In this document: positions 15,438 through 46,096 of the stretch, in pieces
Position numbering within the stretch: the first letter of the stretch is position 1
Layout of the letters: each line of letters begins with the position of its first letter
Assembly: GCA_016870175.1 (NCBI GenBank)
Contig: VGCG01000003.1
Span: 1 to 64,000 of the forward strand
Direction of reading: 5' to 3'
Length of the DNA: 64,000 nucleotides
Origin: Alphaproteobacteria bacterium
Lineage (GTDB): Bacteria; Pseudomonadota; Alphaproteobacteria; Pelagibacterales; Pelagibacteraceae
Notes under the pieces: generated by a model
The model's input: the letters and a program-made list of their open reading frames with translations, nothing else
Database searches by the model: none
Told to the model about the DNA's origin: nothing
Program-made: the position numbers and the translations under genes

Positions 15438-15726
15438 GATTGAGTTTGTTTATCAATAATTTTTTAAAATTAAAGAAAGCATTTTTATCTATAAAATTTA
15501 AGAGTGAACAATCATACACCTTATTATAACTGCAATAAAATTTTTTTTATTGAAGAAAATAAATTTAATTTTGAGAAAACTAAAAATTCCATTTGAAAAT
15601 TAAACAGTAATCATATTATTATTTACAGTTAAAAAAATTATTATTTAAAAAATTTTAAATAACTAGAAAAAATTTCGTCAATAATATTCTATAGTTTTTT
15701 AATATTAAATTTATAAAAAATAACAT

Positions 15727-15768
15727 TTGACTTATGAGGTTAAATTTAATTAATAAGTATAGCGCTAT
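15727..15768 (+). promoter_or_regulatory. Putative promoter and palindrome upstream of bhmT leader
   Basis: TTGACT (15727-15732) is followed after 17 bases by TTAATA (15750-15755), a plausible sigma-70 promoter with a weak -10 box. The expected start would fall close to a perfect 10-bp palindrome, ATAGCGCTAT (15759-15768), which could be an operator or simply the 5' end of the leader. The preceding 15438-15726 is extremely AT-rich, and I see nothing coding or structured in it. Confidence 0.35.
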
Positions 15769-15788
15769 CTTAATTTTAATTGCAAATC

Positions 15789-15842
15789 GCCTAAAAAACC
15801 TGCTATAAACTAGGCAACCTTATAAACAGGTGGTTTTTTTTT
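15789..15842 (+). promoter_or_regulatory. Pseudoknot with terminator-like 3' end in bhmT leader (element 1)
   Basis: GCCTA (15789-15793) pairs with TAGGC (15811-15815). Loop sequence ACCTG (15798-15802) pairs with CAGGT (15827-15831), forming an H-type pseudoknot. The second pairing is followed by GG and nine T (15834-15842), so the ACCTG/CAGGT stem plus an A-run/T-run extension also looks like an intrinsic terminator. TATAAAC occurs twice, before each 3' strand. This organisation resembles the compact SAM-II/SAM-V riboswitch folds, and tandem SAM-II/SAM-V leaders are known in marine alphaproteobacteria. I cannot assign the class by eye. Confidence 0.5.
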
Positions 15843-15862
15843 AGAATTTTCTAAAATAAAAT

Positions 15863-15914
15863 CAGGTATTTAACCAAATTGTGCACCTTGCGCTATGCTA
15901 AAGCACTAAAATGG
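15863..15914 (+). promoter_or_regulatory. SAM-II/SAM-V-like riboswitch aptamer before bhmT (element 2)
   Basis: AGGT (15864-15867) pairs with ACCT (15885-15888). The loop ATTTAACC (15868-15875) matches the SAM-II core, whose U-rich strand lines the SAM pocket. GTGC (15881-15884) pairs with GCAC (15903-15906), and CCA (15874-15876) with TGG (15912-15914), closing the pseudoknot around CTAAAA, as in the SAM-II 3' segment GCTAAAAAGG. A purine-rich Shine-Dalgarno-like run (15915-15924) follows directly. SAM control fits bhmT, which makes methionine, the SAM precursor. Confidence 0.65.
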
Positions 15915-15989
15915 AAGAGGAGAGTAAATTGTTTTCACACTCTTTGCTTAGTGTTTTCAGTTTTTTTTCTTCTACCGCTAGGAGAGAAA

Positions 15990-17051
15990 ATGACAACAAA
16001 TAAATTAAAAGAAAGATTAGATAAGGGACCTGTAATTTGTGCTGAAGGTTTTTTATTTGAAATTGAAAGAAGAGGCTATATGGCGTCAGGAGAATTTGTG
16101 CCAATGGTGTCTTTGGATCACCCTGAAGTTCTTGAAAATTTGCACAGAGAATATCAGCATGCGGGATCAGATATTGTTGAAGCTTTTACTTACAATGGGC
16201 ACAGAGAAAAAATGCGAGTTATTGGAAAGGAAGAATTGGTTGAACCACTTAACCGATCTGCATTAAAAATAGCAAAAAAAGTTGCTTTAGATACTCCCAA
16301 AGGATCTAAGCCAAATTTAATGGCTGGAAATATCTCTAATTCAAATATTTGGAAAGAAGATGATAAGCAAGCTAAAAAAGAGGTTGAACGTATGTTTTCA
16401 GAGATGATTGGATGGGCAGTGGATGAGGGCGCTGATATGTTAATTGGTGAAACTTTTTATTATGCTGAAGAGGCTTTTAAGGCTTTAGAGATTATGAAAA
16501 AATCTAATCTGCCTACTGTATTGACTATCGCTCCAATGGGTGAAAATAAAATGAGAGATGGAAAATCTGTTGTTGATACCTGTAAAGAGTTGGAGCAAAG
16601 AGGAGCTGATGTTGTGGGATTAAATTGTTTTAGAGGACCTGCAACAATGTTACCGTTTTTAAAAGAGATTAGAAAAGCAGTCAAATGTCACGTTGGTGCT
16701 TTACCTATACCCTATAGAACAAATGAGAAATTTCCAACTTTTTTCAATTTACCAGATAGAGACGATTGTAGCTGCCCATCACCACATGGAAGAACATTTC
16801 CTACAGCTCTTGATCCACATTTTTGCAACAGATATGAGATAGGACAATTTGCAAAAAAAGCGAATACATTAGGTGTAAATTATCTTGGTGTTTGTTGTGG
16901 TGCTAACCCAATGTTAATAAGAGAAGTAGCCGAGTCTGTTGGGTTAAAAGTGCCCGCAAGTAAATACAGAGAGAATATGGAAAATCATTTTATGTATGGC
17001 ACAAATAAAAGAATTCCAAAACATATGACTGAATATGGAGACAAGGCGTAA
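15990..17051 (+). CDS. bhmT: Betaine-homocysteine S-methyltransferase
   Basis: Transfers a methyl group from glycine betaine to homocysteine, giving methionine and dimethylglycine. The Zn site is complete: the Cys of GLNCFRGP (about residue 215) and the Cys pair in GVCCGANP (about 300). VICAEGFLFEIERRGY near the N-terminus is the family start. ATG at 15990 is chosen because AGGAG (15980-15984) sits upstream and the N-terminus MTTNKLKERL fits; the frame stays open back to 15879 but that would run through the riboswitch. It is probably regulated by SAM through its leader and coupled to the DMGDH-like protein upstream. Confidence 0.92.
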   Translation: MTTNKLKERLDKGPVICAEGFLFEIERRGYMASGEFVPMVSLDHPEVLENLHREYQHAGSDIVEAFTYNGHREKMRVIGKEELVEPLNRSALKIAKKVALDTPKGSKPNLMAGNISNSNIWKEDDKQAKKEVERMFSEMIGWAVDEGADMLIGETFYYAEEAFKALEIMKKSNLPTVLTIAPMGENKMRDGKSVVDTCKELEQRGADVVGLNCFRGPATMLPFLKEIRKAVKCHVGALPIPYRTNEKFPTFFNLPDRDDCSCPSPHGRTFPTALDPHFCNRYEIGQFAKKANTLGVNYLGVCCGANPMLIREVAESVGLKVPASKYRENMENHFMYGTNKRIPKHMTEYGDKA

Positions 17052-17279: not shown

Positions 17280-17879
17280 ATGCAAAACCAACCAAATAAT
17301 ATTTCTGACAAAATAGCCTACGGATTAACTATGTTTTTTCGTTGGTTTGCTGACACTTTTTTCGCAAAACGTTACGGTCATAGAGCGGTAGTTTTAGAAA
17401 CTGTTGCTGGCGTTCCTGGTATGGTTGCAGGAATGTGGACTCACTTAAAGAGTTTACGACAACTACGTACTGGATATGGTCCAACCATTAGAACTTTGTT
17501 AAGTGAAGCCGAAAATGAACGTATGCATTTAATGATCTTCATAGCCATAATAAACCCAAATAGGTTTGAACGTTGGCTAATTATTTTTGCTCAATTCATT
17601 TTTTGGCATTTTTATTTTTTTCTTTATATTTTCTTTCCTAAAATTGCTCATCGTATGGTAGGATATTTTGAAAACCAGGCAGTAATCAGCTATACGCATT
17701 ATTTAGAGGAGATCGATGCAGGCAGAACAGAAAACATTCCTGCACCAAAGATTGCTATAGATTATTATGGTTTAAATCCAGATGCGAAGTTACGTGATGT
17801 TATAATTGCAGTAAGAGCTGATGAACAAGGACATGCTGATGTTAATCATGACATGGCCAATCAGCTTGCAAAAAAATAA
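17280..17879 (+). CDS. aox: Alternative oxidase (AOX)
   Basis: Di-iron ubiquinol oxidase of the inner membrane that passes electrons to oxygen without pumping protons. The four iron-ligand motifs are present: LETVAGVPGM, EAENERMHLM (ExxH), ENQAVISYTHYLEEI and RADEQGHADVNH (ExxH). Two hydrophobic helices lie between residues 95 and 125. The 199-residue length fits the short bacterial form without a mitochondrial targeting region or regulatory Cys. It is followed after 5 bases by the DUF3147 gene. The 228-base region upstream (17052-17279) has no ORF; a GACTTAAGTC palindrome at 17081-17090 may mark the end of bhmT. Confidence 0.93.
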   Translation: MQNQPNNISDKIAYGLTMFFRWFADTFFAKRYGHRAVVLETVAGVPGMVAGMWTHLKSLRQLRTGYGPTIRTLLSEAENERMHLMIFIAIINPNRFERWLIIFAQFIFWHFYFFLYIFFPKIAHRMVGYFENQAVISYTHYLEEIDAGRTENIPAPKIAIDYYGLNPDAKLRDVIIAVRADEQGHADVNHDMANQLAKK

Positions 17880-45226: not shown

Positions 45227-46096
45227 TTAATTTTTTTTTGCTAATACGTGTAGGTTATAAAATTGAAGTAGAACTGCAATAATAACTATTGTTCCACCAA
45301 GCAAAATTGTGCTTGGTGGTTTTTCAGCTAAAAAAATCCACGCCCATATCGGACCTAAAACCGCCTCTGTAAGCATAATTATTCCTACCATGGCGGATGG
45401 GGTTGTTTGTGCTCCAATTGTTATTAAAATAAAACCGATTCCTAATTGTAAAAATCCTGCTAAAAAGCCCAAAAAGATATCATTCGGAGAAATTATAATT
45501 TTTTCAGACATCAAATAACCAATCATCAACGAAAATATCCCTGCTATAAATTGAATAGGGATCATATCAACGTTAGGATATTTTCTAATTATCAAAATTA
45601 AAACTGCAAAAGATAATGGCATAATGAAAGAGACTATGTTTCCAAGCATTTGGCCGCCAGACAAAGAATTCCCAATCATTAAAAAAATACCAGCAATAGC
45701 CAAAATGATTGATGTCAATGTTATTACTGAAATTTTTTCTTTTAAAAAAAAATATCCAAAAATTGCCAAAAAAATTGTTTGTGTTTGAAGAATGAAATTA
45801 ACATTTGCAACCGAAGTGTTATACATTGCAAATACGTATCCACAAAAACCCAACGACAAAATTAAGCCTCCCAAAATTCCAGGAATGCCTGAGATATAAA
45901 ATATTTTAAAGATTTTTTGTTTATAAGTAAAAATTAAGTAAAAATTAATAACAATTAAAAAAAAAATAGTTCTCCAAAATAAAATTTGCCAGGGACTTGC
46001 ACCTTCAAACAACTTTACAATAAGCCCTCCAAAACTTAAGGTCGATGCACCTAAAAAAACTAATAACGGTCCTGGCAATTTTTTAATTAAATTCAT
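45227..46096 (-). CDS. EamA/DMT-superfamily permease
   Basis: Ten-helix permease with two EamA repeats. Repeat 1 ends FFLKEKISVITLTSIILAIAG and repeat 2 ends GPIWAWIFLAEKPPSTILLGG (each quoted in part as FLKEKIS and FLAEKPP, the family turn). Length 289. It overlaps the pxpC end by 14 bases, so it may be co-transcribed with the 5-oxoprolinase subunits and move pyroglutamate or a related acid. The cargo is a guess from context. Confidence 0.85.
   Translation of the reverse strand: MNLIKKLPGPLLVFLGASTLSFGGLIVKLFEGASPWQILFWRTIFFLIVINFYLIFTYKQKIFKIFYISGIPGILGGLILSLGFCGYVFAMYNTSVANVNFILQTQTIFLAIFGYFFLKEKISVITLTSIILAIAGIFLMIGNSLSGGQMLGNIVSFIMPLSFAVLILIIRKYPNVDMIPIQFIAGIFSLMIGYLMSEKIIISPNDIFLGFLAGFLQLGIGFILITIGAQTTPSAMVGIIMLTEAVLGPIWAWIFLAEKPPSTILLGGTIVIIAVLLQFYNLHVLAKKN

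Follow-up and report, generated by a model that had tools for sequence, protein, structure and literature searches.

A putative three-stage SAM-sensing leader of bhmT in SAR11 bacteria, with a SAM-V riboswitch that may act on a distal Shine-Dalgarno sequence

The bhmT Locus

The 64,000-nt stretch of DNA considered here (the window) belongs to a SAR11-type genome (G000), 82% complete and assembled in 81 contigs. Its forward strand carries at 15990..17051 a bhmT-like gene, whose 353-aa product is a member of the homocysteine S-methyltransferase family (PF02574, E 7.5e-37) and shows up to 94% identity to the orthologues from SAR11 (Pelagibacteraceae); no relatives of the window with a BHMT identity above 94% were found. 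When the protein was compared with NCBIfam no equivalog cut-off was reached, and the name bhmT was given on the grounds of the kinship with these orthologues and of the published tandem leader. In the BHMT tree the protein is placed on a short branch (0.033) and is not decaying. The gene upstream of bhmT encodes a dimethylglycine/sarcosine-dehydrogenase-like protein with the DAO, FAO_M, and GCV_T domains, which fits betaine use, and bhmT is directly followed by a gene for an alternative oxidase (17280-17876; PF01786, E 6.7e-76). Homologues of bhmT are also present in records labelled as SAR86 or gammaproteobacteria (L137, L141-L145, L148-L150, L155, L157, L158, L160, and others), and the gene looks to be common to SAR86 and SAR11; most of the leaders in the records so labelled have a SAM-II-like element that lacks a T run, and in none of them is SAM-V readable.

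A tandem SAM-II/SAM-V leader of bhmT has been reported in Candidatus Pelagibacter ubique (PMC2704228, PMC5069961, PMC9481103). In PMC9481103 it is cited to illustrate a bi-mechanism riboswitch; 149 tandems are given there, and SAM-V is said always to control access to the RBS. The initial annotation of the window had proposed such a double leader, SAM-II followed by SAM-V, and this was borne out, for SAM-V by a covariance model and for SAM-II by a homology model; the outcome named there as refuting, no significant match to any SAM class and no compensatory changes in homologous leaders, did not occur, since the SAM-V match is significant and homologous leaders exist.

The SAM-V Aptamer

The SAM-V riboswitch aptamer occupies 15855..15919 on the forward strand. 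It matches RF01826 over model positions 1 to 66 with 53.5 bits (gathering cut-off 41; E 7.6e-6 for the whole 64 kb), the sole gathering-level Rfam match within the window, and this run of the covariance model places the downstream element of the initial annotation in the SAM-V class. According to the RF01826 alignment, P1 is formed by AGGU 15864-15867 with ACCU 15885-15888, and P2 by GUGC 15881-15884 with GCAC 15903-15906, both on the forward strand. In the published structural model, the binding of SAM to SAM-V leads to the formation of a short helix, P2a, with the adjoining Shine-Dalgarno (SD) sequence (PMC6061858); in the window the trinucleotide CCA (15874..15876, +) is, judged by its sequence, the putative P2a partner of the tail UGG (15912-15914) when SAM is bound.

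The score of the window is low compared with the approximately 72-86 bits in the 19 relatives scanned other than L110. In L110 the SAM-V element preceding bhmT (L110:687-751) is also weakened (50.4 bits) and its SAM-II is intact-looking, a mirror image of the window. A second SAM-V located just downstream of bhmT was seen in two relatives, L112:3035-3099 (58.4 bits) and L110:1886-1950 (57.6 bits), and the gene following bhmT there may also be under SAM-V. The genome of the window itself contains a second SAM-V as well, scoring 76.3 bits, and a metY-like gene starts 17 nt after it; the names metY and metX of the own-genome genes are those that we presume from the published association.

The Eroded SAM-II Aptamer and Its Terminator

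Upstream of SAM-V, at 15756..15842 (+), a diverged SAM-II aptamer and the remnant of an intrinsic terminator are found. They were recognised with R1, a covariance model made from the leaders of 32 relatives with the window left out, which aligns to the window end to end (positions 1-92 of 92; 45.8 bits, E 4.6e-8 in 64 kb). The second-best R1 match in the window (45411-45502, with the string AAAUCCUGCUAAA) has 15.9 bits and E 0.23, which is chance level. Eighteen named loci outside the training set gave 72.0-100.4 bits, and only these define the range for comparison; 37 of 43 other sources gave 72 to 110.5 bits, several of them being training rows under another name and at least ten of the unnamed stretches being on contigs equal in length to training contigs. 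A full-length match with a score below those of the relatives indicates that the window carries a diverged homologue of SAM-II. It departs from the relatives at 16 of 53 near-invariant columns, and no relative does so at more than 3. The Rfam SAM-II model, RF00521, has no match at E<=10 in 15440-16000 of the window, and in the relatives it gives sub-threshold matches at this site in 13 of the 20 leaders scanned (best 32.9 bits vs. the cut-off of 36), all 20 lying below the gathering score. The identity and homology of these parts of the leader are thus supported directly.

In 54 of 80 leaders this position is taken by the pattern of a SAM-II aptamer plus terminator; from these leaders, 26 were picked for alignment A2 and 32 for alignment A3 for nearness and spread; only one genome carries an eroded SAM-II. 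In A2 and in the cmsearch alignment the 5' strand of SAM-II P1 lies at 15761..15766 (+) and its partner at 15786-15791; the window has kept the central GCG:CGC and lost two of the six pairs (A15761/C15791 and C15765/U15787). The P2 pseudoknot strand UUGC at 15780..15783 (+) is opposite GCUA 15802-15805, with 3/3 counted P2 pairs kept in 27/27 rows. All eight SAM-contact bases named in PMC11508383, when mapped onto the alignment, are kept in the window, and SAM-II may still bind SAM there, although the output of the stage is worn. The P1 5' strand is spanned by a perfect 10-base palindrome, ATAGCGCTAT, at 15759-15768, and the GCGCTAT of this region is repeated within SAM-V at 15890-15896. Two further SAM-II-like elements were noticed: one on contig 1 of the same genome (RF00521 21.9 bits, R1 44.3), whose printed core is intact-looking, and one right before bhmT in the G012 leader L189, which is without SAM-V (RF00521 26.2 bits, R1 44.8) and is perhaps translational.

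The aptamer begins at 15761, upstream of the first element of the initial annotation, which had been drawn as an H-type pseudoknot pairing GCCTA with TAGGC and ACCTG with CAGGT. The strings themselves are at the positions given (GCCTA 15789-15793, TAGGC 15811-15815, ACCTG 15798-15802, CAGGT 15827-15831 and 15863-15867, nine T 15834-15842). The pseudoknot did not hold up: across 26 leaders and the window it is paired in 65% of cells, two single pairs being broken in 25 and 22 of the 27 rows, respectively, compared with 95% of cells for SAM-II P1/P2 plus the terminator in the same 27-row alignment. Ordinary pseudoknot-free folding of the window stretch was no better than that of shuffles (z -0.30 and -0.99). 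On some measures the drawn pseudoknot does beat its shuffles (its covariation score was reached by 3 of 500), in our view because ACCTG:CAGGT overlaps the longer hairpin of the relatives that competes with SAM-II; the nine-pair antiterminator of the relatives is paired in 90% of cells, with no covariation. The suggested communication of the two elements through pairing of ACCTG with the second CAGGT was dropped as well, this pairing not being conserved: the eight closest leaders, L101-L108, have CGGGT at that site in SAM-V. What had been drawn as the first element thus comprises the 3' half of the diverged SAM-II aptamer and its terminator.

The remnant terminator (15815..15842, +), delimited by alignment and energy, consists of CAACC 15815-15819 opposite GGUGG 15829-15833, with one A/G mismatch, followed by the nine T at 15834-15842. 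Its hairpin core has an energy of -2.3 kcal/mol vs. a mean of -7.3 in the 54 relatives, and the long hairpin -5.4 vs. a mean of -13.3 (sd 1.8, n 54); a terminator scan found no terminator-like site in the leader of the window. Of the earlier suggestion that this element stops transcription, the T run stands, but an effective stop is unsupported, given the weak stem and the outcome of the scan. Since the terminator is eroded in the genome of the window, the SAM-dependent transcription stop is probably weak or lost there.

Two Layouts of the bhmT Leader

The SD-like string next to SAM-V had been taken as that of bhmT. The string is indeed present, but it is not the SD sequence of the gene: it precedes the start of bhmT by about 70 nt, and a second one, AGGAG, is located at 15980-15984 (+; SD2), separated from the start by 15985-15989. 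The ATG of bhmT is 65 nt past the last base of the SAM-V tail and is thus provided with an SD sequence of its own, the one directly 3' of the aptamer not belonging to it.

When 81 bhmT leaders were sorted by rule, in 20 of them the gene starts close to SAM-V, in 35 it does not, and 26 are cut or have no pattern-readable SAM-V. Two of the 35, L129 and L171, with spacers of 171-180 nt, were set aside, leaving 33 relay-type leaders with the window included; one of these, L110, is outside the relay alignment A1, as its SAM-V end is off the pattern. In L129 and L171 an ATG follows soon after SAM-V, within the spacer to bhmT, and may open a separate small ORF. In the 32 aligned relay-type leaders, the distance from the first G of the tail to the ATG is 68-79 nt. 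In-frame stops between SAM-V and the ATG of bhmT are present in 26 of the 33 (L129 and L171 subtracted), which makes the distal ATG the start in those leaders. Two other uses of the upstream SD were considered and rejected. A conserved upstream ORF is not apparent, a suitably spaced start codon following in just 5 of the 33 leaders (L129 and L171 again excluded) and the spacer lengths not differing by multiples of three; an in-frame N-terminal extension of the protein meets stops in 26 of 33, the frame being open in the window itself. At metY-like loci the gene starts 12-15 nt after SAM-V in 28 of 28 cases read out of 30 tried (17 nt in the own genome), the 30 being the best-scoring SAM-V loci and thus a non-random sample; the two loci left unread are L016 and L024. 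When the two layouts are mapped onto the BHMT tree, 6 changes are required, and supported branches force at least 5 of them.

A Proposed Relay Hairpin between SAM-V and the Distal SD

In the relay leaders three segments follow each other: the purine tail of SAM-V (GGAGAAAAG and similar), a pyrimidine strand (CUUUUCUCC), and the second SD (GGAGAAAAA). In the window, the tail GGAAGAGGAGAG (15913..15924, +) includes the SD-like AGGAG at 15918-15922, which we read as a decoy SD, i.e., a competitor. The relay, or anti-SD, strand UUUUUUUUCUUCUACC (15961..15976, +), delimited by pairing, covariation, and folding, has two possible partners. Through 15965-15976 it opposes the tail, with 11 of 12 pairs formed and one A/A mismatch; alternatively, it opposes UAGGAGAGAAAA (15979-15990) over SD2 and the start, in a hairpin of 15963-15974 with 15979-15990 that has 12 pairs and -10.2 kcal/mol (RNAfold) and covers SD2 and the A of the ATG. 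As computed, a single strand can therefore pair either with the SD or with a competitor upstream of it, which is what characterises an anti-SD relay platform.

All of the first six bases are paired between tail and strand in 30 of 32 rows, and between SD2 and strand in 27 of 32. The strands consist of purine and pyrimidine runs, so that their complementarity is partly compositional, and the rows are relatives and not independent; in a strand-swap permutation of these 32 rows, the own strands gave -20.3 vs. -16.8 kcal/mol (sd 0.5) for the swapped ones, a value reached in 0 of 2000 permutations. The same outcome (0/2000) was obtained for the nine rows under 70% identity (-19.4 vs. -15.5), and for the relay strand with SD2 in these nine rows the count was 40 of 2000, which is weaker evidence. 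Position 7 varies in concert in all three strands: 22 rows have A-U-A, and the 6 rows with G-C-G are L117-L120 and L131/L164, two separated clades on the tree. RNAalifold applied to a MAFFT alignment gave 6 weak pairs and no two-sided change, which we consider uninformative because the inner stems, we think, shift in the alignment.

Folding computations agree with an exchange of partners. With the tail free, the probability of SD2 being unpaired has a mean of 0.447 (median 0.334), and with the tail blocked up to the first two G it has a mean of 0.032 (median 0.002); with four blocked, each of the 32 rows shows a fall of two-fold or more. In 320 shuffled spacers blocking changed it from 0.343 to 0.269, and when the blocked pair was moved along the spacer the effect peaked at tail bases 1-6. 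The complementarity and covariation of the strands and the computed effect of a blocked tail are the parts of the relay that these comparisons show. In the window the values are 0.015 with the tail free and 0.001 with it blocked, i.e., by the folding model SD2 is nearly always off, and L113, L114, and L116-L119 have free-tail values at or under 0.031. In all these leaders the relay would need co-transcriptional folding or an SD2 hairpin less stable than that computed by the model.

Proposed Mechanism and Alternative Explanations

We propose that SAM-V controls bhmT through the relay hairpin, and that bhmT in SAR11 is preceded by a three-stage SAM-sensing leader, a reading to which we assign a probability of roughly 0.6. 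The first stage would be the SAM-II aptamer with its intrinsic terminator (15756-15842), eroded in the genome of the window, where its SAM-dependent stop of transcription is probably weak or lost; the second would be the SAM-V aptamer (15855-15919), and the third the relay hairpin. Without SAM, the SAM-V tail (15913-15924) would hold the pyrimidine strand (15961-15976), leaving SD2 (15980-15984) open and bhmT expressed. With SAM, the P2a helix would capture the first GG of the tail, and the freed pyrimidine strand would then cover SD2 and the start codon, turning bhmT off. In relay leaders the SD beside SAM-V would compete with the true SD, and once its GG has been taken up by P2a the pyrimidine strand should be released; the same OFF logic as in the published SAM-V would be kept and carried about 70 nt farther. 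The GG of the tail is assigned to P2a by analogy with the published SAM-V, and we infer SAM binding by the leader RNA, the formation of P2a in it, the direction of the switch, and the loss of termination.

A wider version of this reading, to which we give even odds, would apply to much of SAR11: the SD beside SAM-V would be a decoy and not simply be covered, with the tail of the aptamer exchanging partners in a three-strand switch that also involves the pyrimidine strand and the true SD; relay and direct layouts would have been swapped at least five times, and in the genome of the window the SAM-II stage would be in the process of disappearing, with compensating changes maintaining the relay.

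Two other explanations appear improbable to about the same degree. One of them is that the 30S subunit binds the SD beside SAM-V and starts at the distal ATG, SAM hiding that SD and the hairpin merely bringing both sites together. Nearly the same distance and logic are described for Sinorhizobium meliloti metA, where the start is 74 nt downstream within a SAM-II system (PMC9373788), and no row of A1 lacks the purine tail. The second AUG of metA is, however, preceded only by weak SD-like sequences and failed outside its own context, whereas a second full GGAG stands shortly before the start in 32 of 32 relay rows; in addition, the spacer strand of these leaders is complementary to both SDs, with the three-way change at one position. 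The other explanation accepts the relay hairpin but makes it non-switching, serving RNA stability or basal repression, with SAM-V decayed in the window. It agrees with SD2 of the window being closed in both computed states and with the SAM-V score being low for the clade; it is at odds with the conservation of the competition in 32 of 32 rows, with a SAM-V that is still above the family cut-off, and with the short branch of a BHMT protein that is not decaying.

Less probable still is the view of the initial annotation, namely that the first element is an active pseudoknot stopping transcription on SAM binding and that the SD beside SAM-V serves bhmT: in relatives the homologous SAM-II units are followed by a strong terminator, and the window retains the SAM-contact bases, but the drawn pairing is absent as a conserved fold in the homologues, the terminator stem of the window is weak, the SD in question is followed by in-frame stops in 26 of 33 relay-type leaders and lies about 70 nt from the start, and the SAM-II domain of a related tandem was reportedly unresponsive to SAM in the full-length RNA (PMC11508383).

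Relation to Known Systems and Significance

The closest known relative is the bhmT tandem of Candidatus P. ubique, which has the same gene and the same order of SAM-II, nine-U terminator, and SAM-V. The window differs from it in its eroded SAM-II and terminator. In the available portions of the papers on that tandem one SD is described, beside SAM-V, and a second SD with a shared anti-SD strand goes unmentioned. Strain HTCC1062 itself probably has the relay layout, judging from its bhmT intergenic region of 261 nt and from one probe printed in PMC11508383, which matches the leader of L115, a relay type.

With the metY SAM-V (RF01826; structure 6FZ0, PMC6061858) the window shares the aptamer family, the conserved core, and the SD-like tail; metY-type genes start 12-17 nt after the aptamer, whereas bhmT of the window is about 70 nt from the tail, behind the relay hairpin. 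The metA leader of S. meliloti resembles it in combining a SAM switch and an internal SD with a start 74 nt downstream; it differs in having SAM-II and not SAM-V, a terminator in between, and weak SD-like sequences before the start used, and the mechanism proposed for it is ribosome loading and not an anti-SD relay (PMC9373788). Anti-SD translational riboswitches in general, called common in PMC9481103, likewise work with mutually exclusive hairpins, one of which hides the SD; unlike in that general platform, the competitor strand of the window is itself an SD-like copy. The tandem SAM-II/SAM-V before bhmT is thus already known, and the relay via a second SD is apparently new for SAM-V: no description of it was found in the literature searched, which comprised excerpts of papers and had the founding SAM-V paper (Poiata et al. 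2009) outside its scope.

SAR11 bacteria, which are very abundant in the ocean, have few routes to methionine, BHMT being one of them (PMC12478193). In the work cited on the tandem, regulation is attributed to the SD next to SAM-V. Should the true SD be located about 70 nt farther and be reached via a relay, constructs ending at SAM-V would miss the expression platform. The repeated swaps between the direct and relay layouts provide a natural series for studies of the evolution of expression platforms.
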